This document shows positions 3,668-32,882 of a stretch of 37,651 nt of DNA, piece by piece. The stretch comes from an uncultured Bacteroidia bacterium (GTDB lineage Bacteria; Bacteroidota; Bacteroidia; Bacteroidales; UBA932). The translations under genes and the position numbers were made by a program. Below the pieces are notes generated by a model. It searched no databases, had not been told where the DNA came from, and saw only the letters and a program-made list of their open reading frames with translations. The DNA is taken from positions 1 through 37,651 of the forward strand of contig CADBMD010000016.1 in the NCBI GenBank assembly GCA_902795735.1, written 5' to 3'. The first letter of the stretch is position 1. Each line of letters begins with the position of its first letter.

Positions 3668-3682
3668 AATCTTTCACACATC

Positions 3683-15570: not shown

Positions 15571-17049
15571 ATGAAGAGAACAAACGCCTTCAAACTCGTT
15601 ATTTCCCTTATCCCCATCCTGGTTTTGATAGCCTTGCTGGCCCTTGACATAGGCATTTTCGGAAGTGATGCCATCATGGGAGCCAGCCAAGTCTCGCTCC
15701 TTTTTTCCGCCGGAATAGGCATGTGGCTGGCCATGTGGCTGTTCAAGGTCCCATGGCAGGATTTCGAAGATACAATCAAGAACAACATCGGCGATGTCAC
15801 TACTGCCATAGTGATCCTGTTCCTGATCGGAGCCATTTCAGGGACATGGACCATGAGCGGGATAGTTCCGACCTTCATCTACTATGGCGTCAAGATCATA
15901 AGTCCGAAGATATTCCTTTTCACTGCCTGCATAATCTGCGCGCTTGTCTCCCTGATGGTCGGAAGTTCCTGGACCACGATCGCCACTATCGGCGTCGCCC
16001 TCATGGGTATCGGAAAGGCAGAAGGATTCAGCGACGGAATCATTGCCGGAGCCATCATCTCGGGAGCTTATTTCGGGGACAAGATCTCGCCTCTGTCTGA
16101 CACTACGGTGATGGCTTCATCCATCAACAAGGTCCCTCTGTTCGAGCACATCCGCTACATGCTCTTCACGACCGTTCCTTCAATCACGGTAACCCTGCTG
16201 ATCTTCCTTGTCCTGGGGTTCTCCCACACTGGGACTGACTCTTCTTCCATAAATGAATACACACAAGCTCTCGGATCCCGTTTCATGATCAGTCCATGGC
16301 TGCTGACAGTCCCGCTCATCACCATGATAATGATAGCCAGGAGAATGCCGGCACTGATGGTACTTGCACTGTCGACGATGCTTGCAGCCTTGTTCGCCGT
16401 CATCTTCCAGCCAGGCAACATCCTCCAGATCGGATCCACGGTCACCGAAGGCGCTAAATGGAAGGTGATGTTCACCGGCGTAGTCGAAACGATCTACAAC
16501 ACAGTTTCACTACCTACAGGCAACCCTGAAGTGGACCAGCTGGTTACATCCAGGGGTATGATCGGAATGCTGAACACGGTCTACCTCATCATCAGCGCCA
16601 TGTGCTTCGGCGCTGCCATGAAAGCCAGCGGAATGCTAAGGAACATTGCATCCGTAATCACCCCACTCACCAAGAGAAGAGGCGGTCTCGTAGGCTCCAC
16701 CGTAGCGACCGGCACAATCCTCAACGGCATCGTTTCAGACCAGTACCTGTCCATAATCCTGACCTCGAACATATTCAAGGACATCTATGAAAAAGAAGGA
16801 TACGAACAAAAACTGCTGAGCCGGGCAGTGGAGGATTCTGCCACCGTCACATCCCCGCTCTATCCCTGGAGCAGCTGCGGAATGACGCAGGCCACGATCC
16901 TCAGCGTTCCCACGATAACTTATCTCCCCTACTGCTTCTTCAACATCATCAGTCCGTTCATGAGCATAATAATAGCCCTGACGGGTTACAAGATCGTCAG
17001 GGCCGTTAAAAAGACTCAGGAGAGTCCTTCTTCTAGTTCTGCTTCTTGA
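15571..17049 (+). CDS. nhaC: NhaC-type Na+/H+ antiporter
   Basis: A 492-residue inner-membrane protein with about 11-12 hydrophobic helices. Recognisable NhaC segments are GTWTMSGIVPTFIYYG, LVSLMVGSSWTTIATIGVALMGIG, GAYFGDKISPLSDTT and the C-terminal SPLYPWSSCGM. Members exchange Na+ (or swap malate for lactate) against protons, helping pH and salt homeostasis. The frame is open to an ATG at 15520, but that adds a 17-residue segment with no family similarity and lies in the probable promoter, so I choose ATG 15571 (MKRTNAFKLV). The gene is divergent from the NigD-like operon. It overlaps the convergent mscL by 17 bp. Confidence 0.85.
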   Translation: MKRTNAFKLVISLIPILVLIALLALDIGIFGSDAIMGASQVSLLFSAGIGMWLAMWLFKVPWQDFEDTIKNNIGDVTTAIVILFLIGAISGTWTMSGIVPTFIYYGVKIISPKIFLFTACIICALVSLMVGSSWTTIATIGVALMGIGKAEGFSDGIIAGAIISGAYFGDKISPLSDTTVMASSINKVPLFEHIRYMLFTTVPSITVTLLIFLVLGFSHTGTDSSSINEYTQALGSRFMISPWLLTVPLITMIMIARRMPALMVLALSTMLAALFAVIFQPGNILQIGSTVTEGAKWKVMFTGVVETIYNTVSLPTGNPEVDQLVTSRGMIGMLNTVYLIISAMCFGAAMKASGMLRNIASVITPLTKRRGGLVGSTVATGTILNGIVSDQYLSIILTSNIFKDIYEKEGYEQKLLSRAVEDSATVTSPLYPWSSCGMTQATILSVPTITYLPYCFFNIISPFMSIIIALTGYKIVRAVKKTQESPSSSSAS

Positions 17050-17479
17050 GAAGGTCGCGGATTTCTTCGAGAAGGACCACGTCGTCAGGCTTCGGAGCCG
17101 GTGCTTCGGGCTCGGCAGGAGCCTCTTCCTTCTTCTCGGTAAGAGCCTTTGCCTTGTTGATAGCCTTGATGACCAGGAAGATGCACAGGGCGATGATGAG
17201 GAAGTCGAAGACTACCTGGAGGAAATTACCCCATGTCAGGGCAACCTCGGGCTTCACGACTTCTCCACCTTCAGTGACGGCCTTGCTGATGACCCACTTC
17301 CAGTCTGTGAAGTTGAGGCCGCCGCACAGGGCGCCTACCAGAGGCATGATGATGTCGCTAACCAGAGACGTGACGATTTTGCCGAAGGCACCGCCGATGA
17401 CCACACCGACAGCCATGTCAATGACATTACCCTTCATGGCGAAGTCCTTGAACTCGGACCAGAATTTTGATTTTGCCAT
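17033..17479 (-). CDS. mscL: Large-conductance mechanosensitive channel
   Basis: A 148-residue channel subunit. The N-terminal helix FWSEFKDFAMKGNVIDMAVGVVIGGAFGKIVTSLVSDIIMP is the classic MscL TM1 with its Gly/Ala pore face; TM2 lies near 78-98; the end is a charged cytoplasmic helix (VVLLEEIRDLLKK). The pentamer opens when membrane tension rises and releases solutes in hypo-osmotic shock. The frame extends 40 codons upstream, but those residues overlap the end of murU and have no MscL similarity, so ATG 17479 is used. It follows murU by 8 bp and is the last gene of the long minus-strand run. An acidic Pro/Ala-rich insert lies before the C-terminal helix. Confidence 0.93.
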   Translation of the reverse strand: MAKSKFWSEFKDFAMKGNVIDMAVGVVIGGAFGKIVTSLVSDIIMPLVGALCGGLNFTDWKWVISKAVTEGGEVVKPEVALTWGNFLQVVFDFLIIALCIFLVIKAINKAKALTEKKEEAPAEPEAPAPKPDDVVLLEEIRDLLKKQN

Positions 17480-17487
17480 AATGTGTG

Positions 17488-18228
17488 TTATTTGAGTGAG
17501 GATAAGAATGATTCTGCTTCCTTCAATGTTTCGGCCTTTCCCACATCCATCATCTCCAGATGTTCCGGTTCCACTCCATAGATCGCGTGATTGGCGCATT
17601 CACGGATGTAGAAATCCATTATGGAGAACCTCTCTCCCCAGCCGTCCTCTTCAAATATAGTGAATATTCTGTCAGAAATCAAATGTACTCCGTCAAAAGC
17701 CAGCATCCTGCATTCCGAAGGATCCAGGCCAGGATAAGGCGACTTGACCTCGCCGGTGGCAATGTTGGTCCACCCGGCAAGCCTCATGTCCTGGTCGAAA
17801 AGCAGGTACCTTTGAGTCTTCCTTTCACTCACCAGAATGTTTGCAAGGGCATCTGGTCGGGCTTTGGAAAGGAACCAGCCAATGTCCAGGTCAGAAAGGA
17901 TGTCGACATTGTGGACCAGGAAAGGGCCGCCTTCAAGCAATTGACGGGCATGGCGTATCCCCCCTCCTGTCTCGCGGAGCAGGTCCCTTTCATCCGAAAA
18001 GGCGACTCTCATCCCAAATCCATCCTCCTCACGCACATAGTCCATGATCATGTCAGGAAAATGATGGACATTCACCACCAGCTCATCGAAACCGGCAGCC
18101 TTGAGTTTCGCCGCCACATGATAGATCAAAGGTTTGCCGCCAACCTTGACCAAAGCCTTAGGGATGCTGTCTGTCAGAGGCTTGAGCCTTGTGCCGAGAC
18201 CGGCAGCGAAAATCATCGCTTTCATCAC
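17488..18228 (-). CDS. murU: MurNAc-1-phosphate uridylyltransferase-like nucleotidyltransferase
   Basis: A 246-residue single-domain sugar-1-phosphate nucleotidyltransferase. The activating loop AAGLGTRLKPLTDSIPKAL (8-26) and the KPLIYH, NVHHFPDMI, RETGGGI and NVDILSDLD (metal-binding) motifs match the MurU type. MurU makes UDP-MurNAc from MurNAc-alpha-1-phosphate and UTP, bypassing de novo synthesis. It has no left-handed beta-helix as GlmU has, and lacks the longer C-terminal region of RmlA/GalU. The start overlaps the end of the AmgK-like kinase gene by 4 bp (ATGA), the kinase that would supply its substrate. The specificity is inferred mainly from this coupling. Confidence 0.82.
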   Translation of the reverse strand: MMKAMIFAAGLGTRLKPLTDSIPKALVKVGGKPLIYHVAAKLKAAGFDELVVNVHHFPDMIMDYVREEDGFGMRVAFSDERDLLRETGGGIRHARQLLEGGPFLVHNVDILSDLDIGWFLSKARPDALANILVSERKTQRYLLFDQDMRLAGWTNIATGEVKSPYPGLDPSECRMLAFDGVHLISDRIFTIFEEDGWGERFSIMDFYIRECANHAIYGVEPEHLEMMDVGKAETLKEAESFLSSLK

Positions 18229-19640
18229 AGGATCTTTTCTATGTCAAGTTCCCGATGCGTCACAGTGATCTTTATGTCGAACTTCTCGGACAAATGCGTG
18301 GCCAGATGTTCGGCGCAATAGACTGAGCGATGCTGTCCTCCAGTGCAGCCAAAGCACACCTGGAGATGGGAGAACTTCCTTTCGATGAAGCACTTGACAT
18401 GATTGTCCACAAGGAAGAAAACCCTGTCGAGGAAATGAGTCACTTCCCCATCATCTTCCAGGAACTTGATCACCTCGGGGTCCAGGCCCGTGAACTGGCG
18501 GTAATGTTCGTATTTACCGGGATTGTTGATGGAACGGCAGTCGAAGACATAACCTCCGCCGTTGCCAGAATTATCGACAGGGATCCCTTTCTTGTAAGCA
18601 AAGCTGAATATGCTGACCTCCAGCCTCTTGTCCTCTGCGATGTTGTTGAACTGCGCCATCGTGGTCAGGTTGGTCAGGACTTCATTAAGATAGGGATAAG
18701 CAGTGAATGGGGTCTGGAGAAGCCGCCTGAGGTTGCTGAGGGCGAAGGGCACGCTGGCCAGGAAATGCGGTTTCTTCTCGAAATAGCCACGGAAACCATA
18801 TGCTCCCAGGACCTGAAGCGTCCTGAACAGGACGAACAAACGAAGCCGCTCATTAAAATACGCCTCATCAACCTGCATGTACCCCTTGAGGGCCGTCAGG
18901 TAGGTCTGTACCATCTCCTTGCGGAGCTTTTCAGGATACCTCGACCGCGCCTGCCATATGAAGGATGCCACGTCGTAATAGACGGGTCCCCTGCGTCCTC
19001 CCTGGAAATCGATGAAATATGGTTCGCCATCCTTGATCATGACATTCCTGGCCTGGAAATCACGGTACATGAATGTATCCCCCATGTCTTCCATGAGGTC
19101 ATCCTTCAGTTTCTCGAAATCATCCTGCAGCCTTACCTCATTGAAATCCAGCCCTGTCGCCTTCAGGAAACAGTACTTGAAATAATTGAGGTCGAACATG
19201 ACCATCCTCTCATTGAATGCAGGTTCCGGATAACAAACCGACCAGTCAAGCCCGGAGGCTCCTTTGAACTGGATCTTCGGAAGCATTTCCATGGTCCTGC
19301 AAAGAAGGCGGCACTCATAGGAACTGTACTCGCCGCTCTCCCGGCCTTGGGAGACCATCTTGTAAAGTTGGTCATCGCCCAGGTCTTCCTGGATGTATCT
19401 CATCCCGTCCGAGGCAACAGCAAAGACCTTAGGAACGTTGATTCCCTTCTCCAGGAAATGGCGGCTCAACTGTACGAAGGCATTGTTTTCTTCACGGTTG
19501 GTACCTATTACACCAACAAGGGAGATATTCCCTCCCTTGAGGCGGAAATATCTCCTGTTGCTACCGGAAGAATTAAGCTCTTCCGCATCTGTCACTTTCT
19601 GGCCGGTGTAAGATTCAAATAAATCTTTTAGCTTGTCCAT
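18225..19640 (-). CDS. AmgK-like sugar kinase fused to a RapZ C-terminal domain
   Basis: Two domains in 471 residues. The N-terminal part (1-330) is an APH-fold kinase resembling AmgK, the anomeric MurNAc/GlcNAc kinase: catalytic loop YRDFQARN (192-199) and IDFQGGRRGP with D211. The first catalytic-loop position is Tyr, not the usual His. The C-terminal part (about 341-471) is a RapZ C-terminal domain: FSFAYKKGIP, YVFDCRSINNP, FTGLDPEVIKFL and GCTGGQHRSV (431-440). In E. coli this domain binds glucosamine-6-phosphate and lets RapZ steer GlmS synthesis; the N-terminal ATPase domain of RapZ is missing. A kinase controlled by amino-sugar phosphate levels is an attractive inference. It overlaps murU by ATGA, and the Ser/Arg-rich protein gene ends 5 bp upstream. 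Confidence 0.82.
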   Translation of the reverse strand: MDKLKDLFESYTGQKVTDAEELNSSGSNRRYFRLKGGNISLVGVIGTNREENNAFVQLSRHFLEKGINVPKVFAVASDGMRYIQEDLGDDQLYKMVSQGRESGEYSSYECRLLCRTMEMLPKIQFKGASGLDWSVCYPEPAFNERMVMFDLNYFKYCFLKATGLDFNEVRLQDDFEKLKDDLMEDMGDTFMYRDFQARNVMIKDGEPYFIDFQGGRRGPVYYDVASFIWQARSRYPEKLRKEMVQTYLTALKGYMQVDEAYFNERLRLFVLFRTLQVLGAYGFRGYFEKKPHFLASVPFALSNLRRLLQTPFTAYPYLNEVLTNLTTMAQFNNIAEDKRLEVSIFSFAYKKGIPVDNSGNGGGYVFDCRSINNPGKYEHYRQFTGLDPEVIKFLEDDGEVTHFLDRVFFLVDNHVKCFIERKFSHLQVCFGCTGGQHRSVYCAEHLATHLSEKFDIKITVTHRELDIEKIL

Positions 19641-19645
19641 TTAGT

Positions 19646-21115
19646 TTAGTAGAGATTGCTGTACTTAACTCCGTTGGAGTCGTAGTTGTACTTCTGGGCC
19701 ATCTTGCCGTACATCTGTCCGAGGACCTCGAGGTAAGGCTTGCCTTCTACGAGGGTCGTCCTGTACACGGTGTCGTCCACTTTGTAGTAGTTGACTCCGT
19801 CAAGGGTGATGGTGTCGTAGTCATCAGGAAGAGCTTCCACGAGAGCTCCTGCCGGAGGTACGATGACCTCATACTGGCCGTTGGAGTTGACGATGTAGAA
19901 GACGCCGTCCTGATAGTAGTAAGGCTGATTTGCGTAGGCATAGCTCTGTGCCAGTCCAAGCCGGTTGGCAAGGGAGTAGGCATCATCGGCCCTGGTCGTG
20001 TTCAGGGCGAGGGAACTGTTCTGCGCCGCGATGGTCGCATTATTCTGCGCTATGATCCTGTTCTGCTCGTCGATGATCCGGTTGTTGGCATCGATCGCAT
20101 TGTACATCCTGTAGGTGTTGTAGTAGTACGCAAAGCGCACCGTCGAGAACACAAGGTTGGAGACTGCGACGTCGATGCAAACTCCGAAAGGAGGCCTGCA
20201 GATTACCCAGAACCCGTTGTAGGGCCTGTAGTAGATTCCGTCATAGAAGCAGTAGTCGATTCCCCAGTAGGTCACCCTCCTGTAGCGAGGCGGCAGGTAG
20301 TTGACCCTGTAGCCGTAGTAGTGAGGATGGTGTCCCCAGAAATGTCCGGCACGGTCGTAGGGAAGGAAATCACGCTCTCTCGGAGGGATCCTATGGACAT
20401 TCCTGTCTTCGCCGATCCTCATGAAGTCGTTACGGTTTTCCTTCATCACGTCTGACCCATTGCGGGACATCGACTTGCTGTCGAAGGAGGTCAGTCCGCC
20501 GCGAGTAGCGTTCCCGACTCTCTGGGCTTCCCTGTCCCTGTTGCTGGCTGAAGAGCCTCTGGCAACATTGCTGCGGGATGCGGAAGAGCCAATCGGTTGT
20601 GCCACCCTTTCACGGGCGCTGCGGGAAGCAGAGGAAGACCTGCTCTGGGATGAACCCTCAGTAACCTGGGAGTTCCTGCGAGCAGCAGTACTTGAGCTGC
20701 GGGAGGCAGAGGAAGACCTGTTTTGGGAAGAGCTGCCGGAAACCTGGGAGCTGCTTCTGGAGGCAGAGCCTGAACTGCGGGATGCAGAAGATGACCTGTT
20801 CTGGGAGGAGCTACTGTAGGCCGGTGAGCTGCTGCGCGAGGAAGATCCTGAACTGCGTGATGCAGAAGATGACCTGTTCTGGGAGGAGCTGCTGTAGGCC
20901 GGTGAGCTGCTGCGCGAGGAAGATCCTGAACTGCGTGATGCAGATGAAGACCTGCTCTGGGAAGAAGAACTTCTTGCAGACATACTGCTATTTGAAGAGG
21001 TGCTGCTCCTCGAACCGCCCGAGGAACGCCTGGCCTGAGAGTATGAATCTACAGGGAATGCAACCATGGCAAGAGCCACTATCGATGCGATTGCAATGTT
21101 GATGATGTTTTTCAT
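19646..21115 (-). CDS. Exported Ser/Arg-rich repeat protein with DUF6515-like C-terminus
   Basis: The 489 residues start with a signal peptide (about 1-27, ending near SYSQA). A low-complexity region of Ser, Arg, Ala, Asn and Gln (about 28-190) is partly built from 26-residue tandem units. A basic, aromatic stretch (HFWGHHPHYYGYRVNYLPPRYRR) is followed by a Gly/Tyr-rich hydrophobic segment, an Asn/Gln-rich coiled segment (NNRIIDEQNRIIAQNNATIAAQ) and a C-terminal domain with YYYQDGVFYIVN, VIVPPAGALVEALP and GVNYYKVDDTVYR typical of DUF6515. The function of that family is unknown; a periplasmic or surface location is expected. It sits inside the cell-wall salvage gene run, 5 bp before the AmgK-like gene and 31 bp after namZ. 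Confidence 0.65.
   Translation of the reverse strand: MKNIINIAIASIVALAMVAFPVDSYSQARRSSGGSRSSTSSNSSMSARSSSSQSRSSSASRSSGSSSRSSSPAYSSSSQNRSSSASRSSGSSSRSSSPAYSSSSQNRSSSASRSSGSASRSSSQVSGSSSQNRSSSASRSSSTAARRNSQVTEGSSQSRSSSASRSARERVAQPIGSSASRSNVARGSSASNRDREAQRVGNATRGGLTSFDSKSMSRNGSDVMKENRNDFMRIGEDRNVHRIPPRERDFLPYDRAGHFWGHHPHYYGYRVNYLPPRYRRVTYWGIDYCFYDGIYYRPYNGFWVICRPPFGVCIDVAVSNLVFSTVRFAYYYNTYRMYNAIDANNRIIDEQNRIIAQNNATIAAQNSSLALNTTRADDAYSLANRLGLAQSYAYANQPYYYQDGVFYIVNSNGQYEVIVPPAGALVEALPDDYDTITLDGVNYYKVDDTVYRTTLVEGKPYLEVLGQMYGKMAQKYNYDSNGVKYSNLY
20665..20976 (-). repeat. Four 78-bp tandem units coding Ser-rich repeats
   Basis: Units begin at 20665, 20743, 20821 and 20899, with a period of exactly 78 bp (26 codons). 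The 20821 and 20899 units share a nearly identical first 46 bp; the outer units have diverged. Translated on the minus strand they give SSSPAYSSSSQNRSSSASRS-type units. The in-frame period means copy number can change without breaking the protein. Confidence 0.8.
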
Positions 21116-21146
21116 ATCTTGTGAGTTTTAGTAGTATTAATGTAAG

Positions 21147-22409
21147 TTAATCGTACAACAAGTATTTCTTGGAGAGTTTCTTGAAGTTTCCAACATCTTT
21201 CAACCAGTAGTCTTTGATGTCCTCGACTTTAAGCTGCTTCTCAAAATGCACTCTTACATAATCCGTACCACAAACTTTATCGAACATCTCATTGCGTCCT
21301 CCAGGCAGTTTGAAAGGGTTCCTGGAGGGGTATAGTTCACCGATTGCCTGCATCACATAGAACTGAGTCAAAGTACAGCAAGCCGCATCGAAATCGGTGT
21401 AATGGTATTGGACTCCATGGACCAGCTTGCCCTGCGAACTGCCGGAGAAAGGCTTGAAATGGATGGTCCGGAAAGCGACTCCGGGCAGGTTGTAGCTGTC
21501 CAGACGCTCCTTGAGTTTCTCCGCATCGATCCATTCGGCAGCAAAAACCTCGAATGGGAGGGTATAGCCTATGCCGATATTCAAGTATCCCTGGAACTCG
21601 CCGGCGATACCGGCCGAAGGATAGTTGATAGCTGACTGAGGATAAGGAATATTCGGGGAAGGCAGGACCCAGGGAAGGCCCGTGTCGGAATAAAGCATAT
21701 TCCTGTGCCATCCATCCATCGGAATAACGGAAAGCTTGCATTTCAAAGGTGCATCCTTTCCCCTCTCTCCACGATTGAGGCCTTCTTCATTGATGAGGAT
21801 TGCAAGTTCCCCTACGGTCAGTCCATAGATGTATGGAATCTTGAATTCGCTGACGAATGAATGGAAGCCATCCTCCACCAGGCAACCTTCGACCTTGTTG
21901 CCTCCGAGGGGATTCGGCCGGTCCAGGACCATTACTTCGATCCCTTGTTCCGCGCAGGCCCGCATCACAAGACCGAGAGTGCTGATGAACGTGTAGGAGC
22001 GGCTGCCCACGTCCTGTATGTCATAGACCACTACATCCAGTCCGGAAAGCATTTCAGCCGTAGGTTTCCTTGTGGAGCCATAGACTGAATAAACCGGAAG
22101 CCCTGTCTTCGGATCCTTCCCGTCCTCCACTCGTCCTCCTGCATAGACATCTCCGCGCACTCCATGTTCGGGAGCGAACAGTTTCCTGAGATCGACCTCG
22201 GGCGAGTCGTTAAGGATGTCTATGGTGGAACGGAGATGGCTGTCCACCCCGCTCGGATTGGTCACGAGGCCGACCTTCTTGCCTTTCAGCCCGTCGAAAT
22301 CACGGCCTTCAAGGACTTCGATGCCAGGACGTACTTGTGCGTGGACAGTTATCGCTGAGCAGATGGAAAGGACTGCCGCTGCCAGGAAATGGAGAGTCTT
22401 ATTGTTCAT
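21147..22409 (-). CDS. namZ: Exported exo-beta-N-acetylmuramidase (NamZ/DUF1343, GH171)
   Basis: A 420-residue protein with a signal peptide (about 1-25, ending TVHAQ) and a full DUF1343 domain. Motifs are GLVTNPSGVD, FAPEHGVRGD, PVYSVYG, YDIQDVGSRSYTFISTL, LDRPNPLGG, and PSPNIPYPQSAINYPS. NamZ enzymes of Bacillus and Tannerella remove MurNAc from the non-reducing ends of peptidoglycan-derived chains. Here the enzyme should act in the periplasm or at the surface and supply MurNAc or small muropeptides. No lipobox is visible. The start overlaps the end of the AmpG-like permease gene by 11 bp. With AmgK and MurU downstream it forms a MurNAc recovery pathway. Confidence 0.85.
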   Translation of the reverse strand: MNNKTLHFLAAAVLSICSAITVHAQVRPGIEVLEGRDFDGLKGKKVGLVTNPSGVDSHLRSTIDILNDSPEVDLRKLFAPEHGVRGDVYAGGRVEDGKDPKTGLPVYSVYGSTRKPTAEMLSGLDVVVYDIQDVGSRSYTFISTLGLVMRACAEQGIEVMVLDRPNPLGGNKVEGCLVEDGFHSFVSEFKIPYIYGLTVGELAILINEEGLNRGERGKDAPLKCKLSVIPMDGWHRNMLYSDTGLPWVLPSPNIPYPQSAINYPSAGIAGEFQGYLNIGIGYTLPFEVFAAEWIDAEKLKERLDSYNLPGVAFRTIHFKPFSGSSQGKLVHGVQYHYTDFDAACCTLTQFYVMQAIGELYPSRNPFKLPGGRNEMFDKVCGTDYVRVHFEKQLKVEDIKDYWLKDVGNFKKLSKKYLLYD

Positions 22410-23724
22410 TTTCGTTCGTTTTTTCTGTCTCTGAGGATTTGGCTGAGGACTTGCCGAAAGCCGGGTCTATCTTTATCAATGCAGTCACTGCGAAAGTTAT
22501 AAGGCAGAAAACCATGACCATGATGAAGAACTGGTGGTAGCCGAGCTTGTCTGCCAGGTAGCCTGAGACCATGCCGGGAAGCATAAGGCCAAGATAGGTG
22601 ATTCCGGTACAGATGGAATAGTGCGATGTCTTGAACTCACCCTGGCTGAAATAGAGCATGTAAAGGGTCAGTGCCGTAAAGCCGAAGCCATAGCCGAACT
22701 GTTCAATGAATATGCAGGCAGTCACGACCGCAAACCCAGGATTGTGTCCGGCACTGAGATAGACATAGACCAAGTCCGGGAGGGTCAGGGCCAGGACCAT
22801 GGGCCAGAGCCATTTCTTGACTCCGTCGCGACTGGCAAGGATTCCACCCAAGATTCCGCCCAGTATAAGTCCTATCACGCCGATGGTGCCATATGCAAGT
22901 CCATACTGCTCGGAACTAAGGCCAAGCCCTCCTTCGACGGCAGGCCTCAACAGGAAAGTGGGGCTCATCTTGGTAAGAAGCGCCTCGGGGAAACGGAAAA
23001 GCAGAAGGAACAGAAGGGCCACGATGATTTCCTTGGCGGGAAATTTCGTAAAGTAGGTTGTAAAACTCCTGCCAAGAGTTTTCCATGTTTCCTTGGCAGA
23101 GAGTTCCCTAGGCTGGTCATTGGGACTCTTCGGAAGATAAAACTTATGGTAGAGGGCGATTGCAAGGAACAATCCTGCAAGGCCGAAGAAGACCAGGCTC
23201 CATGAAAAGGCCACCTTGCCTCCGGATGCTTTCTGTATGATGCCGGCTACAGGCACCAGCACACCATTTCCGAATATTACGGCAAGACGATAGACCGTGT
23301 TCCTGATCCCGACGAAGAAAGACTGCTGGTGACCGTCCAGTTCTATCATGTAGTAGCCGTCAGCAGCGATGTCGTGTGTCGCGCTGGAGAAGCCCATGAG
23401 GAAAAGGAAGAACATTAAGCATTGGAACCAGAATGAAGTTCCAATCGTGAAAGCGACACCTGCGAAAGCAGCTCCGAGGAGCATCTGCATGGCGATCACC
23501 CACCAGCGCTTGGTCTTGAAGACATCGACGAAAGGGCTCCAGAGAGGCTTGATGATCCAGGGGAGCTGGAGCCAGCTGGTGTACAAGGCGATCTGGGTGT
23601 TGGTGAGGCCCATCTGAAGGAGTATGACCACCGAAACTCCGGTGACTATGATATTGGGCAGGCCTTCGGCTGCATAGACCGTCGGAATCCAATACCAGGG
23701 AGATCTCTTATCTTTCATCTGCAA
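22399..23724 (-). CDS. AmpG-like major facilitator permease
   Basis: A 441-residue membrane protein with about 12 helices. The N-terminal pattern YAAEGLPNIIVTGVSVVILLQMGLTNTQIALYTSWLQLPWIIKPLWSPFVD matches the AmpG/PAT branch, where the PW-KPLWSP-VD signature follows helix 2. FSSATHDIAADGYYMIEL also fits. AmpG imports GlcNAc-anhydro-MurNAc peptides into the cytoplasm; related permeases in Tannerella take up MurNAc. Its place directly before namZ supports an amino-sugar or muropeptide substrate, though the exact one cannot be read. It begins 4 bp after the DUF4922-SpoIID gene. Confidence 0.78.
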   Translation of the reverse strand: MQMKDKRSPWYWIPTVYAAEGLPNIIVTGVSVVILLQMGLTNTQIALYTSWLQLPWIIKPLWSPFVDVFKTKRWWVIAMQMLLGAAFAGVAFTIGTSFWFQCLMFFLFLMGFSSATHDIAADGYYMIELDGHQQSFFVGIRNTVYRLAVIFGNGVLVPVAGIIQKASGGKVAFSWSLVFFGLAGLFLAIALYHKFYLPKSPNDQPRELSAKETWKTLGRSFTTYFTKFPAKEIIVALLFLLLFRFPEALLTKMSPTFLLRPAVEGGLGLSSEQYGLAYGTIGVIGLILGGILGGILASRDGVKKWLWPMVLALTLPDLVYVYLSAGHNPGFAVVTACIFIEQFGYGFGFTALTLYMLYFSQGEFKTSHYSICTGITYLGLMLPGMVSGYLADKLGYHQFFIMVMVFCLITFAVTALIKIDPAFGKSSAKSSETEKTNENEQ

Positions 23725-23728
23725 GTGG

Positions 23729-25933
23729 TTATTGTTGTCTTGTCAATCCGGCTCCGGGATAGTAGTGATGCAATATCTCCTCGAAGGAATACCCGCGGCT
23801 TGCCATCACCGCCGCACCTATCTGGCACAAGCCCACGCCATGTCCCCAGCCGGAACCGTCGAGGGTCACTCTGTCTCCATCCCAGGAAACCTCGAAAGCG
23901 GAGCTCTTCAAGTGAGATTCAGAAAGCCATTTCCTGATCAGGAGTTCCTTCCCTATGACCAAAGTCTTCTTTTCTCCGACTATCCTCAGCTTCTTCAGCC
24001 TTCCGGAAGGCCCACGTTCTACAGGTTCCAAGTCCTTTATCATTCCAAAATCCATTCCTGACCGGCGGTTCACCAGTTCGGACAGTCCGGCACGGGTGAA
24101 TTCCACCTTCCAGCGGTAGAAATCCTTTGTCTCAAGGTCATAGTCATTAAGGACCTGGGAAAGGATCTGCTGGTCTGAGGTGTTGCAGAAAGGATCACCA
24201 CCCTCTTCCTCACCTGCGGTATCGGGCAAAGGACGAAGGTAGGGATATTCCTTATCCTCCCAACAAGTACTGAAAGACTCCATCCTGCCTCCGCAGCACT
24301 TTGAAAAGCGAGCATCACAGATCGCTCCGCCATAAGCCAGGACCAGCCCCCATGTCTGGTCGATGGCTTTCCTGACAGTATCCCCTACCGCCATGGACAG
24401 GCCTTGATAGCGCTGGCAATGGTCATCCGCACACACATCGAAAAGCGTATGGTCTTCGTGGTCGAACCATTTTATGTACTCCCCGGAAGGGTTCTCTTCC
24501 ACCCCGGATGCCCTGCCGGATATTCCCTGGTCTGGTCCATCTTTCCGGCGCAACATCTGCACCAGGACCCATGAACGGGAAATCACGGCATGCGCCTTGA
24601 GGAACTCCAGAGAAGCACTGGACTTCATTTCAGATGAAATGACGCTGAGCAGGTAATCTTCGACTCCGACCACATTCACGGCGGTCACTTTCCCTCCGTC
24701 GACAATGAACTTCAATGTTCCGGCAAACTTCTGCGTCTGCTCACGCTCCCAATGGAAACCGACCCCGATGGTCACCCTGTGCAAGATGAAAGAAGGCTCG
24801 GCGAACATCGTAGACTCAGTCTGGGCGTCGAACACCAGCTCGTCGAAAAGGACTCCGTTGTACGAGATCCGGCCATCCTCATAAGACACCTTCTGCGGGC
24901 CGGCACCGTCCGAAACTATCTCGAATTCAATTTCATCCGCAGACATGATCCCGACTTCGATCCTGGGCTGTTTCCTGGTCAGACGCCAGATTATCCCCTC
25001 TTCGTCCGCGGGAGAAACGCAGACTTCGTCAAGGACGCTCTCCAACAATGACGGATCGATCTTATCGAAATCCTCGGGACGGGTGGTGATGAAGGTCCCA
25101 CCCATGTCCGCACAACCGGGACTCATCGCCAGATGGTCCGAAGAGTCGGAAAAATAATGATGCGGCCGATGCTTTTCCCTGAATATCACTACGGAGCGGA
25201 ACTCATTCGCCGTACGCCATGTAATGATGTTTATCCTCGGTTCAGAGTCCCCTTCCTTTACCTGGGCACAGTCCAGGAGCCTGTAGAACAATTTCGCCTG
25301 GGACTTCGCTGTCATTGCCCTCAGGACGAAAACGCCCCTGACATATTCATCAAGATGATAAAGGTCAGCTTCCTTGACGCTCGTCATGTAGACAAGCGGC
25401 TTCCGCTCGAGTCCTCCATCCAGGAGGAAATCCACTCTCTTTTCCAACGGCATCAGACCCCTGGGGCAAGCTTGGAAATGCATGTGGTCAGGGGCAGAGG
25501 CTCCGCTTTTGGGACCGTTGTAGAAGCAAGTGAATGACTGATTGTCCCTGACGAAATCCAGCATGTCCTGATAGCGACGCCAGATCGACTGGGGAATATG
25601 GTCGAAACTCGACACGACCAGATGCCTGGGAAAAATAGGGAATGGATTCAGGGTAATCCTGTATTTCCTCCCCTTCCGACCTTCGAATTCGATATCATGC
25701 TGTTCCGCAGGGCGGTTTTCCGGGCAGAGAAAACATGGCCTGGCCTTTACCGATTCCGGATCCAAAGGGGCCTCGGAAGATATCTTCCTGGAAGGATTGT
25801 ATTGCACGACAACATCCAGGCCGCCGATCGTCAGGCTCTTGGCACGGACCTTCTTCAAGGCTCTATAGTTCTTTGCGGCCAAAGGCCAGACAGAAAGCTG
25901 GTCCTTTATGAATTTGTCGATTTCCTTATTCAT
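23729..25933 (-). CDS. DUF4922 (HIT/GalT-like) and SpoIID lytic transglycosylase fusion
   Basis: The 734 residues join two enzymes. The N-terminal half (1 to about 325) is DUF4922, related to Ap4A phosphorylase and GalT: CFLCPENRP, LNPFPIFPRHLVV, and the HxHxQ motif H150-M-H152-F-Q154. The C-terminal half (about 325-734) is a SpoIID/LytB domain. It has VEDYLLSVISSEM with the likely catalytic E435, FLKAHAVISRSWVL, VCADDHCQRYQG (C501, H505, C506, zinc-site type), CCGGRMES, and GSGWGHGVGLCQIGA near the end. SpoIID cuts denuded glycan strands to anhydroMurNAc ends. There is no signal peptide, so both halves should be cytoplasmic, which is odd for a wall enzyme. The start shares one base with the Nudix gene's stop (TAATG). 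Confidence 0.82.
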   Translation of the reverse strand: MNKEIDKFIKDQLSVWPLAAKNYRALKKVRAKSLTIGGLDVVVQYNPSRKISSEAPLDPESVKARPCFLCPENRPAEQHDIEFEGRKGRKYRITLNPFPIFPRHLVVSSFDHIPQSIWRRYQDMLDFVRDNQSFTCFYNGPKSGASAPDHMHFQACPRGLMPLEKRVDFLLDGGLERKPLVYMTSVKEADLYHLDEYVRGVFVLRAMTAKSQAKLFYRLLDCAQVKEGDSEPRINIITWRTANEFRSVVIFREKHRPHHYFSDSSDHLAMSPGCADMGGTFITTRPEDFDKIDPSLLESVLDEVCVSPADEEGIIWRLTRKQPRIEVGIMSADEIEFEIVSDGAGPQKVSYEDGRISYNGVLFDELVFDAQTESTMFAEPSFILHRVTIGVGFHWEREQTQKFAGTLKFIVDGGKVTAVNVVGVEDYLLSVISSEMKSSASLEFLKAHAVISRSWVLVQMLRRKDGPDQGISGRASGVEENPSGEYIKWFDHEDHTLFDVCADDHCQRYQGLSMAVGDTVRKAIDQTWGLVLAYGGAICDARFSKCCGGRMESFSTCWEDKEYPYLRPLPDTAGEEEGGDPFCNTSDQQILSQVLNDYDLETKDFYRWKVEFTRAGLSELVNRRSGMDFGMIKDLEPVERGPSGRLKKLRIVGEKKTLVIGKELLIRKWLSESHLKSSAFEVSWDGDRVTLDGSGWGHGVGLCQIGAAVMASRGYSFEEILHHYYPGAGLTRQQ

Positions 25934-26523
25934 TACAGAAGTGCAAGAAGTGAGTGCCTGGTCGTAGAGAACTCCTGTTCGAAATTAGGAGTGAATATTC
26001 CTTTACCTAGTCCTGCCTCAATCTCTTCCATGCTCCAGTAACGCCCCTCGGTGACTTCTTCATTGCACGGATCCAACTCAAAGTTGCCTACGGTAGCGAA
26101 GACATTTACGAGCTCTTTCTCTTCACTGCTCTCCCAGACATACGATTTCAGGTAGACCGGGTTGAATCCCTCGAACTGAAGCTCTTCGGAAGCCTCCCTG
26201 AAAAGCGCGGCTTCCAGGAGCTCTCCATAATCGACATGCCCTCCGACAGCAGTGTCCCACTTGCCAGGAAGGAGCTTTTTCTTCATGGATCTCTTCTGAA
26301 GGAAGAGTTCACCATTGCGGTTCACGATGTGAAGGTGCACAACAGGATGAAGAAGCTTTACCTCGCCATGGACGCTGTCCCTTGAGGCCTGGCCAATGAC
26401 AAGGCCGGTTTCTTCGACTACGGGAATCATCTCACCCTGCTGGACAGGATGTCCGCCGGGATTGTCAACCGTAGGAAATGGAAGCACAGGGGCCGGATCG
26501 ACCGGATAAATCAGTTCGAACAT
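25933..26523 (-). CDS. Nudix hydrolase
   Basis: A 196-residue protein with a Nudix domain from about residue 58. The Nudix box runs from G95 through E101, R109-E110 and E113-E114 (GGHVDYGELLEAALFREASEEL). The glycine expected near the end of the box is replaced by Gln. The N-terminal part (NPGGHPVQQGEMIPVVEETG) and the HPVVHLHIVNRNGELFLQKRS strand resemble isopentenyl-diphosphate isomerase-like Nudix proteins (YfcD-like). The substrate is unknown; a nucleoside-diphosphate derivative is likely. It lies 6 bp after the transporter gene and its stop overlaps the next start. Confidence 0.85.
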   Translation of the reverse strand: MFELIYPVDPAPVLPFPTVDNPGGHPVQQGEMIPVVEETGLVIGQASRDSVHGEVKLLHPVVHLHIVNRNGELFLQKRSMKKKLLPGKWDTAVGGHVDYGELLEAALFREASEELQFEGFNPVYLKSYVWESSEEKELVNVFATVGNFELDPCNEEVTEGRYWSMEEIEAGLGKGIFTPNFEQEFSTTRHSLLALL

Positions 26524-26529
26524 GTTGAT

Positions 26530-28215
26530 TTAAGCAAATGCCATCAGGATCAGCAGCTGGGCAACCAGGACCCTGAGGAACATGGACAAAGGATAGACAG
26601 TAGCATAATTGATGGAAGGATAATCCGTTCCGTATGCTCCCTGAGTGAATGCCAGGACAGCAGGGTCGGTCGTTCCTCCGGATATAAGGCCGCAGATCTG
26701 ATAGAAATTCAACTTACACAAGTAGCGTGCGATAAGACCGATGAGAAGGACTGGGATGAAAGTTATCAAGGCTCCGTAAAGGATCCACCAGTAACCTCCG
26801 CCGACGATGGAACTGATGAAATTCTGTCCTGCTCCCAGACCGACGGCGGCCATAAAGAATGAAATCCCTATCTCGCGGAGCATCATGTTGGCGCTCTTGG
26901 TCGTATATACGGTTATCTTCCACCTGGGACTGAAATAACCAAGCAGGATGGAAATGATAAGAGGTCCTCCGGCAAGGCCGAGTTTGACAGGCTGAGGGAT
27001 TCCGGGGAACTTGAGGGGCAATGTCCCAAGTATCACACCCAAGGCTATTCCGAAAAAGATAGGAATCAGATTCGGTTTATCAAGGCTGGTCATCCTGTTT
27101 CCGACAAGTTCGGAAACAGCATCGACACCAGATTCTGGTCCGACGATCTTAAGGTTGTCGCCCATCTGAAGGATCAGGTTAGGACGGGCTACGAGATCAA
27201 GTCCGGCCCTGGTAATCCTCGTCACGGACACACCATACTTGGCCCTTATGTTAAGATCCTTCAGTTTGATTCCCGTCAAGGATGGCTTGGTCACGATGAC
27301 CCGCTTTGAAGTGGTCTTTATGTCTATCTTCTGCCAGTCCTGCAGATGCATCGGGACCTCCTTCCCGAAAAGGATCCTGACATGGTCCACATTAGCCTGA
27401 TTGGTAACTACCAAAAGTTTGTCTCCCTGCATCAGGACGGTATCTGGACCAGGGATGGAAATGACGCCATCCCTGAGAATCCTCGAAACGACGAAGTCGC
27501 TGCCGCCATCCTTCTTCACCATGGACAGTTTTTGGCCGAAAATGGCAGGATTCTCCACTTCGCAGTGCATCCTGCGGGCATGGCCTTCAGAATCATCTTC
27601 CTTTTCCAGTTCTGCCTTCTCTTTGTCAAGGTCGACCTTGAATATGGCCTTGAAGAATATTATGAGGGCTATCACCAGGAGTACGCCCAAGGGATATGCT
27701 ACGGCATAGGCGGAGGCAAGTCCGGCTGTCGCCGAGGTCACTTCCGATGCCAGGACACCTTCTGAATTAAGCACTTCGCCCATGGTTTGCTGGGCAGCAC
27801 CAAGGCCGGGAGTGTTGGTTACAGCTCCGGACATCACACCCACCATTGTCTTGAGGTCCTCTCCAGAAATGAAATGGATTGCCACAGTGACTGCGACGGC
27901 GAGGAGCACCAGGCAAAGGGCAAGGCCGTTCATCAGAAGTCCTCCTTTCTTGAAGGAATGGAAGAAACCAGGGCCGACCTGGAGTCCGATAGAAAAGACG
28001 AACAGGATCAGGCCGAAATCTTTCATGAAATTCATTACTGTCGTATCAACCCTTACCCCGAAATGGGCAAGTACGATAGCCACGAACAGGATCCAGGTAG
28101 ATCCGATTGAAATTCCCTTTATCTTATAGCGGCCGAGCCAAAGCCCGAATGCAATCACGACGGCGAAAACAAGTATCGAGTGGGCTATTCCAGGCCCTAA
28201 TAGCAAATCTTTCAT
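26530..28215 (-). CDS. AspT/YidE-family transporter with paired RCK-C domains
   Basis: A 561-residue inner-membrane protein of the aspartate:alanine exchanger (AAE) family. Two membrane blocks (about 1-195 and 385-561, with the paired motifs TNTPGLGAAQQTMG and GTTDPAVLAFTQGA) surround a cytoplasmic section of two TrkA-C (RCK_C) domains (about 215-375; VLMQGDKLLVVTN and LILQMGDNLKIVG). Relatives such as YidE and YbjL are poorly characterised anion or amino-acid exchangers; AspT swaps aspartate for alanine. The substrate here is unknown. Alanine or glutamate traffic would suit the neighbouring wall-recycling genes, but that is speculation. It begins 4 bp after the HU-like gene. Confidence 0.85.
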   Translation of the reverse strand: MKDLLLGPGIAHSILVFAVVIAFGLWLGRYKIKGISIGSTWILFVAIVLAHFGVRVDTTVMNFMKDFGLILFVFSIGLQVGPGFFHSFKKGGLLMNGLALCLVLLAVAVTVAIHFISGEDLKTMVGVMSGAVTNTPGLGAAQQTMGEVLNSEGVLASEVTSATAGLASAYAVAYPLGVLLVIALIIFFKAIFKVDLDKEKAELEKEDDSEGHARRMHCEVENPAIFGQKLSMVKKDGGSDFVVSRILRDGVISIPGPDTVLMQGDKLLVVTNQANVDHVRILFGKEVPMHLQDWQKIDIKTTSKRVIVTKPSLTGIKLKDLNIRAKYGVSVTRITRAGLDLVARPNLILQMGDNLKIVGPESGVDAVSELVGNRMTSLDKPNLIPIFFGIALGVILGTLPLKFPGIPQPVKLGLAGGPLIISILLGYFSPRWKITVYTTKSANMMLREIGISFFMAAVGLGAGQNFISSIVGGGYWWILYGALITFIPVLLIGLIARYLCKLNFYQICGLISGGTTDPAVLAFTQGAYGTDYPSINYATVYPLSMFLRVLVAQLLILMAFA

Positions 28216-28219
28216 TACA

Positions 28220-29038
28220 TCAATAATTAATAATGCGCAGTTCTTCTTCCGTGTAGAGTAACGAGTCCGTGAAGTCCGGGGCGAACCTTGACATCAAGAT
28301 AAAGGCAACCAGGAAAAGGATAACCAGACCCAGGATCCACAACAGCGCTTTGAAAACCTTCGGCCAGACTGACCTCGACCTCTCCCCCGCAGGCACTTCC
28401 GCAGCTTGTGCCGCAGGCTGAGGTTCCGGCTGAGGTTTAGGCTGTTCGGTTGATTGCACTTCCGGCTGCACGGTCGGCTGAACCACGGGCTGCATGGCCG
28501 GTTGAACTCCCGACTGCACTTCCTGACGAGATGAAGAATGGTCTGGAGAAGGATCCTCAGTGACTATCTCCTTCAATTCCCTAACAGCCTCTGAGACTTC
28601 ATCAGCAGTCTCCTCATGGGTTTTAAGTGAAACCGGACGGAGACCGAAACCTTCAGGATGGATGTCAAGATCCTCATCAGCTATGAAAAAGAAAATATTT
28701 TCCTTCGTAGCCCTCAGCCTCCCGAGTCCCGGAAGCAAGACAAGCTTCTTAGATTGGAGAGTCTCCCTCAAACCAGAAATGAATCCAGAGATGATCCTTT
28801 CAGCATCACCGGAATCTATCCCATTGCTCTCCGAATAGAAATCGACAAGAAGGGTGTCGGACTCTTCCCAGCGCTGCCGGAAAGACAGTCGGCGGTAAGG
28901 AGGATTGATAGTGTAGCCTTTGTCAGAGAAAGTCGATGGCATGACCTCGGAGACGAATGTTCCTAGACCAGGTAACGTAACTTGATCATTGTCAAGAATC
29001 AAGTTCTTTACTATGTCCGAGAAAAGGTCTATATCCAT
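28220..29038 (-). CDS. Membrane-anchored HU/CCDC81-like protein
   Basis: The 272 residues begin MDIDLFSDIVKNLILDNDQV. Two HU-like modules follow, each marked by LPGLG (LPGLGTF at 22-28 and LPGLGRL at 102-108). Then come a Val-Gln-Pro repeat stretch (about 172-213), one membrane helix (about 229-249) and a short tail ending EEELRIINY. This fits Bacteroidetes CCDC81-type HU proteins, which often end in a SPOR domain; none is present here. Orientation would leave the HU modules in the cytoplasm. The frame is open for another 15 codons (to 29083), but those overlap the promoter; ATG 29038 has GGAG-like bases before it. First gene of the long minus-strand run. Confidence 0.7.
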   Translation of the reverse strand: MDIDLFSDIVKNLILDNDQVTLPGLGTFVSEVMPSTFSDKGYTINPPYRRLSFRQRWEESDTLLVDFYSESNGIDSGDAERIISGFISGLRETLQSKKLVLLPGLGRLRATKENIFFFIADEDLDIHPEGFGLRPVSLKTHEETADEVSEAVRELKEIVTEDPSPDHSSSRQEVQSGVQPAMQPVVQPTVQPEVQSTEQPKPQPEPQPAAQAAEVPAGERSRSVWPKVFKALLWILGLVILFLVAFILMSRFAPDFTDSLLYTEEELRIINY

Positions 29039-30750: not shown

Positions 30751-30835
30751 TTAGCTTGAGGCCCGGCCTGTCGTTAGGATTTAAAAAGGTATGGCTGTGG
30801 GTGGGTGAAGCAGTGCATGTAATCAAAAAAAAACG

Positions 30836-30843
30836 TATTTTTG
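30836..30843 (+). promoter_or_regulatory. Putative -7 element for the exported carbohydrate-region protein
   Basis: TATTTTTG matches TAnnTTTG, 20 bp before ATG 30864, after a poly-A tract. No TTTG is seen at -33. The site argues for the start at 30864 rather than the upstream in-frame codon at 30756, which lies in the repeat boundary. Confidence 0.5.
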
Positions 30844-30863
30844 CAATAGGTGATCTTCTTATT

Positions 30864-32882
30864 ATGAATAATCGTAGACTTCTCCATCTTTTGTTGATGG
30901 CATTGCTGCCCGTTATGGCAGCCGCCCATGCCAACTCACAGGCAACCCAGAACCTCCCCGTCAAGTCATTCATCAGCATCAAGCAACCAGGCGACCCAGC
31001 CGTACGGTATGACTTGAAAGATCCTGCACAAGCTTCCCTACCAGTCACGGTGACCGAATCCACAAGGCAGATAAGCGACAAGGAGTTTGCTTTCACTGTT
31101 ATCATCAAGGCCTCCAGGAGGACTTATTTCAATTACCAGGCAGAGATCGGGACGGGCTTCCCTTCTGAAGATTCAGAGTACTACCTTCCCGGATTCTGGT
31201 ACCATCTCAATCTCCGGTCACCAGAAAAGGCACCTTCTTTCCACTCATCAAAAGCCTGGAACTTCAGGGAAGACCGCATGTCCATCCCGATGACGGCGGC
31301 CTTCAACAAGGTTGACGGCCGGTCGGTAAGCGTCATGAGGAAGCTGGACGAGGGTTGTGACGCCCTTACAACCAGCCTTGAAGGAGAAGTCATCCTGTCC
31401 GGCGAAAGCTCGATAGGTTTCCTGGGTATCGATTCTGAGAAACCTGTTTCCAGCCTCACTTTCGGCTATCCCTACATGGAGACCCCGACCAGCTACATCC
31501 GCAAGCTTACTCTTGCCCCGCCGATCCAGGCCTTCGCCAAGCTTGAGCCCGGAGAAGAAAAGACCCTGACATGGTACGTTCGCACCGACAGCAGCGAGGA
31601 CTACGGCACTTTCGTGAAAGAGGCCTGGGAATATTCCTTCGACAGGATGGCTCCGGAGCCGCTGGTACCGCTATACACCCCCGAGCAGATGAAGGCACAG
31701 CTGTCGAAATATTTCCGGATAGGATTGGTGGAAGGTTATCCGCTGAAGTTCTATACCAGTCTCGGGATGCGCATAGCAGAATGCAAGAATGTTCCCATCA
31801 TGGAGGTCGGCTTTTGCGGAAGGACGCTGCTGAACGCCTTCAATGCCGTTGAATATGGCTACCAGACCGGCCAGGAAGACATCGTCAGGATAGGCAACTC
31901 GATCTTCGATAGTTTCCTCGAGAACGGGTTCACTTCCAATGGCTACCTGCTCGACAAGATAGATTTCCGACGTGCCGTGCCTCCGGAGGAGGAAATGCCC
32001 CTCAGCATCCGCAGGGAGTCCGAAGGTGTCTATGCCCTGCTCCTTTACCTCAAGTACGAAAAGGAAAACGGCCGCATCCACAAGGAATGGGATGGACGCG
32101 TCCGCACCCTGCTGGACAACATGGTCTCACTCCTGAAAGAAGACGGAAGCTATCCACGGAAATTCCGCATGGACGGAACGGATGTCGACTCCAGCGGAGG
32201 ATCCACGCCTTCCGCGACATCTGCCCTGGTCATGGGCTACAAGTACTTCGGTGACAAAAAATATCTTGCGGCGGCCAAGCGTACCGTCGGCTACATAGAG
32301 GAAAACATCATATCCAAGAGTGATTATTATTCTTCCACCCTGGACAACAACTGCGAAGACAAGGAGGCTGCAATTGCAGCAGTGACCGCTACCTACTACC
32401 TTGCCAAAGTCACAAAAGGCAAGGAGAGGCAGCACTACCTCGAGCTTTGCCGCCAGGCCGCCTATTTCGCCCTGTCTTGGTACTATCTATGGGACATCCC
32501 CTATGCCCAGGGACAGATTTTCGGAGACCTGGACCTGAAGACCAGGGGCTGGGGCAACGTGTCAGTTGAGAACAACTGTGCCGATGTCTTCGTCTTCGAG
32601 CTTGCCCACATAGTCAAATGGCTAGGCGAGACCTTGGGCGAAGAAAGGTTCGTCAAGATGTACGAACTGATCAGTTCTTCGCTCGACCAGCTTCTTCCCG
32701 TGCCCGGCAGGATGTGCGGAGTCGGGAAGGAAGGCTTCTATCCCGAATTCATACAAAGCACTGCATGGGATTACGGCAAGAACGGCCGCGGATTCTACAA
32801 TGAATATTTTGCTCCGGGATGGGCCATAGCCTCTCTATGGGAGCTTTACTCTCCCACACGCACAAGCCACTTCCTTGAATAA
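30864..32882 (+). CDS. Exported protein, possible six-hairpin (alpha/alpha-toroid) carbohydrate enzyme
   Basis: The 672-residue protein has a signal peptide (about 1-26, HLLLMALLPVMAAAHANSQA). An N-terminal beta-rich half follows (about 30-255; it includes FWYHLNL and the predicted sandwich ending LTWYVRTDSSEDY). The helical C-terminal half (about 275-672) has repeated paired helices and Gly/aromatic turns such as SEGVYALLLYLKY, SGGSTPSATSALVMGYKYFGDKKYLAAAKR and YNEYFAPGWAIASLWELY. This plan is typical of alpha/alpha-toroid glycosidases and lyases. I do not recognise a specific family, and catalytic residues cannot be named. The neighbouring GH51 remnant and GH43 enzyme suggest arabinose- or xylose-containing plant glycans. 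The frame is open upstream to 30756, but promoter and signal peptide favour 30864. Confidence 0.6.
   Translation: MNNRRLLHLLLMALLPVMAAAHANSQATQNLPVKSFISIKQPGDPAVRYDLKDPAQASLPVTVTESTRQISDKEFAFTVIIKASRRTYFNYQAEIGTGFPSEDSEYYLPGFWYHLNLRSPEKAPSFHSSKAWNFREDRMSIPMTAAFNKVDGRSVSVMRKLDEGCDALTTSLEGEVILSGESSIGFLGIDSEKPVSSLTFGYPYMETPTSYIRKLTLAPPIQAFAKLEPGEEKTLTWYVRTDSSEDYGTFVKEAWEYSFDRMAPEPLVPLYTPEQMKAQLSKYFRIGLVEGYPLKFYTSLGMRIAECKNVPIMEVGFCGRTLLNAFNAVEYGYQTGQEDIVRIGNSIFDSFLENGFTSNGYLLDKIDFRRAVPPEEEMPLSIRRESEGVYALLLYLKYEKENGRIHKEWDGRVRTLLDNMVSLLKEDGSYPRKFRMDGTDVDSSGGSTPSATSALVMGYKYFGDKKYLAAAKRTVGYIEENIISKSDYYSSTLDNNCEDKEAAIAAVTATYYLAKVTKGKERQHYLELCRQAAYFALSWYYLWDIPYAQGQIFGDLDLKTRGWGNVSVENNCADVFVFELAHIVKWLGETLGEERFVKMYELISSSLDQLLPVPGRMCGVGKEGFYPEFIQSTAWDYGKNGRGFYNEYFAPGWAIASLWELYSPTRTSHFLE

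Follow-up and report, generated by a model that had tools for sequence, protein, structure and literature searches.

Tannerella forsythia is described as lacking MurA and MurB, and a route to UDP-N-acetylmuramic acid (UDP-MurNAc) that runs through AmgK and MurU without MurA/B has been proposed for it (PMC7670621). Its AmgK and MurU are reported to give labelling with MurNAc probes in E. coli (PMC13041923), and its lytB-ampG-ybbC core to lie in one transcript, as tested by reverse transcription PCR (PMC5388701). RapZ is presented as an RNA adapter and a sensor of glucosamine-6-phosphate (GlcN6P), which is bound by the C-terminal domain of the E. coli protein; its primordial role is treated as open and speculated on (PMC7073468). 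Here we analyse a DNA stretch of 37,651 nucleotides (the window) from an uncultured Bacteroidia bacterium of the UBA932 lineage, in which ten genes on the minus strand (17033-29038) include an AmgK-like kinase fused to the C-terminal domain of RapZ (RapZ_C). The window is contig 16 of an assembly of 2.29 Mb in 186 contigs, 82% complete. We consider it likely that the run joins two salvage modules into a bypass from MurNAc to UDP-MurNAc, in which the kinase carries a sugar-phosphate-binding RapZ_C domain acting either as a gate or as a phosphatase.

The AmgK-like open reading frame (ORF; 18225..19640, minus strand) codes for a sugar kinase (residues ~1-325; PF01636, 6.4e-13) and runs on into RapZ_C (residues ~337-465), which was overlooked in the preliminary description made from the sequence alone. 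PF22740 matches residues 341-465 at 1.6e-34, and residues 337-465 match E. coli RapZ structures at 5e-16, while the kinase part matches structure 3csv at 4e-14. The full-length predicted model (pLDDT 93, pTM 0.70) resembles aminoglycoside-phosphotransferase-type (APH) kinases throughout the best 50 structure matches listed, with 3csv at the top (E 1.4e-12). The RapZ_C domain alone, predicted from 39 sequences (pLDDT 95.4, pTM 0.90), gives a TM score of 0.91 to 5o5s, normalised by the 5o5s chain (Foldseek). Kinase residues R193, D194, N199 and D211 are invariant in 62 sequences. The R-D...N and D residues of an APH-fold kinase, which we take to be catalytic, are thus all kept. The loop G431-C-T-G-G-x-H-R-S-V440, where x is position 436, is likewise invariant in these sequences, including C432, T433, G434, H437 and R438 of the pocket; C247, T248, G249, H252 and R253 of the E. 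coli RapZ pocket are all retained in the window protein (E. coli numbering from chain positions in the alignment). The motif C-T-G-G-[QR]-H-R-S is present in 118 of 119 RapZ_C ORFs, the variable position being Q in 110 and R in 8; the exception (L178) is an ORF that ends at a contig end. The N-terminal P-loop (Walker) domain of RapZ is absent from the protein, its place being occupied by the kinase domain, and no match to PF03668, the RapZ N-terminal domain, turned up in the window genome (82% complete). On visual inspection, the window protein does not carry at its end the RNA-binding consensus that PMC7525490 gives for E. coli RapZ.

The association of the two domains was followed in 119 genomes of the family and 395 genomes of the phylum. 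The window protein has matches in 78 of the former and 134 of the latter, 50 of which exceed 100 bits. The remaining 84 are weak kinase hits (35.6-70.9 bits), all from family f19; they lack RapZ_C and were rejected as AmgK. RapZ_C (PF22740) occurs in 49 of the 395 phylum genomes, and all 49 carry AmgK above 100 bits; G127 is the sole genome among the 50 such AmgK carriers without RapZ_C. Both domains share one open frame in 37 of the 49 genomes. RapZ_C adjoins AmgK without sharing one frame with it in eight others (G130, G149, G213, G328, G383, G395, G399 and G426), with one stop across the RapZ_C/kinase match in G149 and G213, and is unlinked to AmgK in four (G298, G389, G424 and G449). In a scan of named contigs, the best 80 of 589 matches include Bacteroides timonensis, Phocaeicola plebeius, Parabacteroides chinchillae, Hoylesella buccalis, Alloprevotella rava and Carboxylicivirga, as well as metagenome-assembled genomes (MAGs) labelled Ignavibacteriales and Calditrichia. 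On the AmgK tree, G465 (L087) and G348 (L088), from two other families of the order, nest beside G020 of family f1. This nesting suggests horizontal transfer, and movement of AmgK between lineages is likely since two other-family rows nest in the tree and several branches are long.

The distribution of AmgK was compared with that of MurA, MurQ and AnmK. Forty of the 119 family genomes lack MurA (TIGR01072), namely 38 of the 78 AmgK carriers and 2 of the 41 non-carriers. Thirty-six of the 40 have no hit at 1e-30, and the other four, of genus g21, have hits of 107-116 bits that were not counted as true MurA. Four genomes with partial hits below the cut-off were counted as MurA-present (G089, G063 and G112, E <=4e-88; G044, 2.7e-84). 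Fourteen of the 38 MurA-less carriers are estimated to be at least 95% complete, and one, G003, is a single contig. The absence of MurA together with AmgK-RapZ_C points to MurNAc auxotrophy. Taking E<1e-40 as a strong MurQ match, a threshold set in this analysis, MurQ is absent from 30 of the 309 phylum genomes outside f19, and 29 of these 30 carry AmgK, against 21 of the 279 with MurQ (Fisher p 4e-26, kinship ignored and all 86 f19 genomes left out of the table). The f19 genomes have neither strong MurQ nor strong AmgK, no AnmK row was seen for them, and 84 of the 86 hold the weak kinase relative. AnmK occurs without strong MurQ in 16 phylum genomes; 15 of them, all but G499, carry AmgK and RapZ_C.

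In the direction of transcription the run reads HU-CCDC81 protein, AspT/YidE exchanger, Nudix hydrolase, DUF4922 plus SpoIID, AmpG-like permease, NamZ, Ser/Arg-rich DUF6515 protein, AmgK-like kinase, MurU-like nucleotidyltransferase and MscL, as found with the ORF list and Pfam and NCBIfam profile searches. It joins two modules that recur apart, SpoIID-AmpG-NamZ and AmgK-MurU. The second comprises the fused kinase and a MurU-like MurNAc-1-phosphate uridylyltransferase (17488..18228, minus strand; NF045761, 3.5e-38), whose structural match 8hhd (1.6e-18) itself carries the name MurU; the two ORFs overlap by 4 bp in the window. Among 119 AmgK loci (39 from the sampled genomes plus the best 80 of 589, partly overlapping sets with some records in common), 80 have a same-strand MurU no more than 300 bp from AmgK, and 15 have one farther downstream, again on that strand. 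The first module consists of three minus-strand genes: a DUF4922 domain fused to SpoIID/LytB (23729..25933; PF16269, 4.5e-54; PF08486, 3.3e-21; SpoIID_LytB family match, 3.7e-52), an AmpG-like permease of the major facilitator superfamily (22399..23724; TIGR00901, 1.3e-47) and the exo-beta-N-acetylmuramidase NamZ (21147..22409; PF07075 or NamZ_N, 2.1e-84; PF20732 or NamZ_C, 2.7e-38; 4k05, 6.5e-140). We take the lytB and ybbC genes of T. forsythia to code for the SpoIID protein and NamZ. Of 20 further NamZ loci of the family, 18 keep the strand and order of the three genes, AmpG standing in the middle, and the other two (L194 and L200) are cut by contig ends; kilobase gaps precede AmpG in L187 and L201, and about 1.2 kb precede NamZ in L195 and L197. 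Seven of the 20 have DUF4922 and SpoIID in one fused gene, and in four DUF4922 has its own gene immediately upstream. Elsewhere in the window genome, a second NamZ_N match lies at L002 (G000 contig 54).

These observations suggest the following scheme. NamZ, probably exported to judge from its hydrophobic, signal-like N-terminus (hydropathy 2.35), would clip MurNAc off peptidoglycan fragments, and the fragments would be imported by the AmpG-like permease. Inside, an apparently cytosolic SpoIID/LytB protein, with or without DUF4922, would act on them. The N-terminus of the window SpoIID protein is not hydrophobic and has no apparent signal peptide, and hydropathy reveals no clear signal peptide in 11 orthologues encoded next to AmpG (L188-L191, L193, L195, L199 and L203-L206); SpoIID therefore probably acts on imported fragments. 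Several of these AmpG-adjacent proteins carry or neighbour the nucleotide-phosphorylase-like DUF4922 domain, which in the window keeps an HxHxQ motif (HMHFQ) and matches the Ap4A phosphorylase 4i5t weakly (6.9e-4). MurNAc would then be phosphorylated at C1 by AmgK and converted by MurU to UDP-MurNAc, bypassing MurA/MurB. An amino-sugar phosphate is the most likely ligand of the conserved phosphate-binding loop of RapZ_C, and the domain may either gate the kinase as a sensor or dephosphorylate MurNAc-6-phosphate and pass MurNAc on to the kinase. The route from MurNAc to UDP-MurNAc draws support from the recurrence of the AmgK-MurU pairing and from the near confinement of MurA absence to AmgK carriers.

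Several findings weigh against this scheme. The family names of the preliminary description hold by profile matches. However, three of the proteins score below the curated cut-offs, AmgK with 57.8 bits against 550 (NF045759, 9.4e-16), MurU with 131.7 against 250 and AmpG with 162 against 350, and these are therefore homologues rather than confirmed equivalogs. No MurU was seen at 20 of the 119 AmgK loci, its orientation differs at two, and there was no room for it at two. MurA is also missing from two genomes without AmgK, G070 (87% complete) and G085 (59%). The Fisher value of 4e-7 for MurA and AmgK overstates independence, because the MurA state requires just at least four changes on the AmgK tree (40 of the 78 family carriers), and the Fisher values 4e-7, 4e-26 and 4e-62 all ignore kinship. 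Restoring f19 to the AmgK-MurQ table (21, 29, 258, 87) raises p to 8e-6. The cytosolic placement of SpoIID, as it appears from hydropathy, includes a borderline case (L206, 2.01). H190 of E. coli RapZ aligns to Gly375, invariant in the 62 sequences, which makes a ligand other than GlcN6P possible. Finally, the window genome keeps both MurA (6.7e-127) and MurQ (TIGR00274, 1.4e-90), so salvage is not obligatory there. The lack of MurQ had been put forward as fitting a route through free MurNAc. A scan of window ORFs against NCBIfam gave no MurQ match, but with MurQ elsewhere in the genome its absence was rejected as evidence for that route. The reported lack of AnmK extends to the whole genome, where none was found in the 82% complete assembly. 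Five GH3 matches, any of which might be NagZ, the third enzyme reported missing from the window, lie on its other contigs.

The alternative that survives best concerns RapZ_C itself. As a Cys-dependent sugar phosphatase standing in for MupP, it would supply the attached kinase with MurNAc made from MurNAc-6-phosphate; we regard this as possible but doubtful. A tyrosine-phosphatase-like C(x)5R[ST] loop, in the form C(x)5R(S), occurs in 118 of the 119 RapZ_C ORFs, and Khan and Gorke describe the E. coli pocket as homologous to such a loop and suggest hydrolysis of GlcN6P (PMC7199280). In the account of PMC9841335, E. coli RapZ loses its activity with either C247A or C247S, and the density in the pocket resembled a chemically transformed GlcN6P product; NTPase and phosphatase activities are reported for YvcJ in PMC7525490. 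The 15 of 16 AnmK-positive, MurQ-negative genomes that carry AmgK and RapZ_C may need another outlet for MurNAc-6-phosphate, a pattern that favours a phosphatase. The opposing pattern is that AnmK is missing from 18 of the 49 RapZ_C genomes, the window genome among them, which favours a sensor. All 17 Foldseek matches of the RapZ_C model at E<=0.001 are RapZ and none is a phosphatase fold, a missing match being weak evidence. On balance, a sensor or gate is somewhat more likely than a phosphatase. More speculative still, and rather improbable, is an evolutionary version in which RapZ_C, fused to AmgK or found alongside it, was originally a murein-recycling amino-sugar-phosphate phosphatase that made MurNAc from MurNAc-6-phosphate and channelled it to phosphorylation at C1, enterobacterial RNA-regulating RapZ would be a derived slow or stalled sensor, and MurA-less lineages would live by the bifunctional enzyme.

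Considerably less probable is that the AmgK homologue acts on another amino sugar, such as N-acetylglucosamine or N-acetylgalactosamine, and that the pair makes a donor for capsule or glycan synthesis. The scores of AmgK and MurU below the equivalog cut-offs would agree with this, as would the matches of the nucleotidyltransferase to mannose-1-phosphate guanylyltransferases. However, AmgK goes together with the lack of MurA and, outside f19, with that of MurQ, it has NamZ/AmpG neighbours in two genera, and the T. forsythia AmgK and MurU are reported to handle MurNAc probes (PMC13041923).

The preliminary description had proposed one dedicated ten-gene operon that includes a turgor valve. ORF coordinates confirm ten ORFs on one strand with gaps of -11 to +31 bp (in order, +4, +6, -1, +4, -11, +31, +5, -4 and +8), and these gap lengths would fit a single transcript. 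In relatives, the order holds only in part. G096 keeps all ten genes in order, with about 0.8 kb between the ORFs for HU and AspT and an insert of 2.6 kb between SpoIID and AmpG; this insert (L067:4156-6700) holds an opposite-strand gene resembling an N-acetylmuramoyl-L-alanine amidase (PF07313, minus strand there) and a UbiA prenyltransferase. In G084, of the same genus, the first module with AspT and Nudix lies on contig 5 and AmgK-MurU on contig 1. The MAG locus L107 has seven genes, Nudix to MurU, with SpoIID lacking DUF4922 and the contig starting at Nudix, and no MscL match was found in the ~0.95 kb after its MurU. Among 40 AmgK or RapZ_C loci compared, some cut by contig ends, SpoIID, AmpG and NamZ stand beside AmgK in two, G096 and G083 (genus g22). 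Both modules stand together in the window, G096, L107 and six g22 loci (L074 and L188-L192), two of which have a 4.7 kb gap (L191) or a GH18 gene (L188) at the junction. The insert in G096, the split in G084 and these scattered meetings indicate that the ten-gene run is a local arrangement. A possible, weak Bacteroidetes-type promoter (17652..17683, minus strand) lies inside murU, upstream of mscL. The pattern TTTG-N17..23-TAnnTTTG, which we take to be the consensus for such promoters, has two matches in the window against 0.42 expected, and at least two were obtained in 7 of 100 shuffles. Scans of the window for sigma-70 promoters and terminators gave 7 and 15 candidates, against 9.3 and 12.0 in shuffles. 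A dedicated ten-gene operon with a turgor valve is thus very unlikely, as its tight gaps, single strand, full order in G096 and seven genes in L107 are set against the opposite-strand gene in G096, the split in G084, the lack of MscL in L107 and the possible promoter inside murU, and what stands of the proposal is the route from MurNAc to UDP-MurNAc.

The remaining genes of the run, all on the minus strand, differ in how closely they accompany the two modules. The MscL channel gene (17033..17479; PF01741, 1.1e-45), which likely starts at the ATG at 17479 rather than at the ORF start at 17599, directly follows MurU in the window and G096 alone among the loci viewed; MscL was rejected as a functional part and is probably a neighbour by chance of place. 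The HU-CCDC81 protein (28220..29038; PF18175, 6.6e-12; PF18174, 3e-10), with one hydrophobic segment (hydropathy peak at residue 235) and a start at the ATG at 29038 or alternatively at a GTG at 29083, also looks incidental. The Nudix hydrolase (25933..26523; PF00293, 2.1e-14) and the AspT/YidE-type exchanger (26530..28215; NF003007, 1.3e-188, above its cut-off) are companions within the same genus. Nudix lies upstream of SpoIID in L187, L193, L195 and L196, all of the same genus, and likewise in L107; AspT lies upstream of Nudix in L187 and L195, also of the same genus. The Ser/Arg-rich exported protein has a hydrophobic N-terminus and a C-terminal DUF6515 (19646..21115; PF20125, 4.2e-19), and its orthologue follows NamZ in G096, G084 and L107. 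Outside the run, three plus-strand genes in a row at 2570-6306 code for an APH kinase, a protein of the enolase superfamily that resembles dipeptide epimerases (600 bits to 3iji) and a protein with a transglutaminase core, possibly a second cluster in the window for salvage of murein peptides; the kinase among them (2570-3667) shows no similarity to AmgK. The minus-strand ORF at 34096-36573 joins a part resembling GH43 beta-xylosidases to a TIM barrel like that of xylose isomerase, and the plus-strand ORFs at 30756-32882 and 33065-33661 have no Pfam or NCBIfam match at 1e-5. The Rfam scan of the window returned solely one tRNA and one distant riboswitch, a SAM-I/IV aptamer match at 33946-34047 on the minus strand.

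The combination of genes had been considered undescribed. The SpoIID-AmpG-NamZ core, published for T. forsythia, and the AmgK-MurU step are already known, and what appears new is the AmgK-RapZ_C fusion. In open-licence PMC articles, neither this fusion nor RapZ with AmgK was found in print, and no paper was found that has NamZ, AmgK, MurU and AmpG together with the stem Bacteroid-. The occurrence of RapZ_C only alongside a MurNAc kinase in the 395-genome phylum sample offers a concrete test of a RapZ role beyond small-RNA regulation. That 38 of the 78 family genomes carrying AmgK-RapZ_C lack MurA suggests that a need for MurNAc may be widespread among these Bacteroidales; such dependence, known from an oral species, could bear on their being mostly known from metagenomes.

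The locus is related to three described systems. The ampG-murTKQ operon of T. forsythia (Tanf_08345-08385), as presented in PMC5388701 and PMC7670621, serves MurNAc salvage, as the window run would, and has lytB-ampG-ybbC in the same order as SpoIID-AmpG-NamZ (PMC5388701). However, murT-murK-murQ come next in T. forsythia, whereas the window has the DUF6515 protein, AmgK-RapZ_C and MurU instead. Recycling of the Pseudomonas type (AnmK-MupP-AmgK-MurU) shares the AmgK and MurU steps with the window, but no AnmK was found in the window genome, AmgK carries RapZ_C, and NamZ would supply free MurNAc. RapZ/YvcJ proteins share with the window protein the C-terminal fold (TM 0.91 to 5o5s) and the CTGGxHRS pocket motif. 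Unlike them, the window protein has no N-terminal P-loop domain, has Gly in place of H190 and has an APH-fold kinase as its fusion partner.

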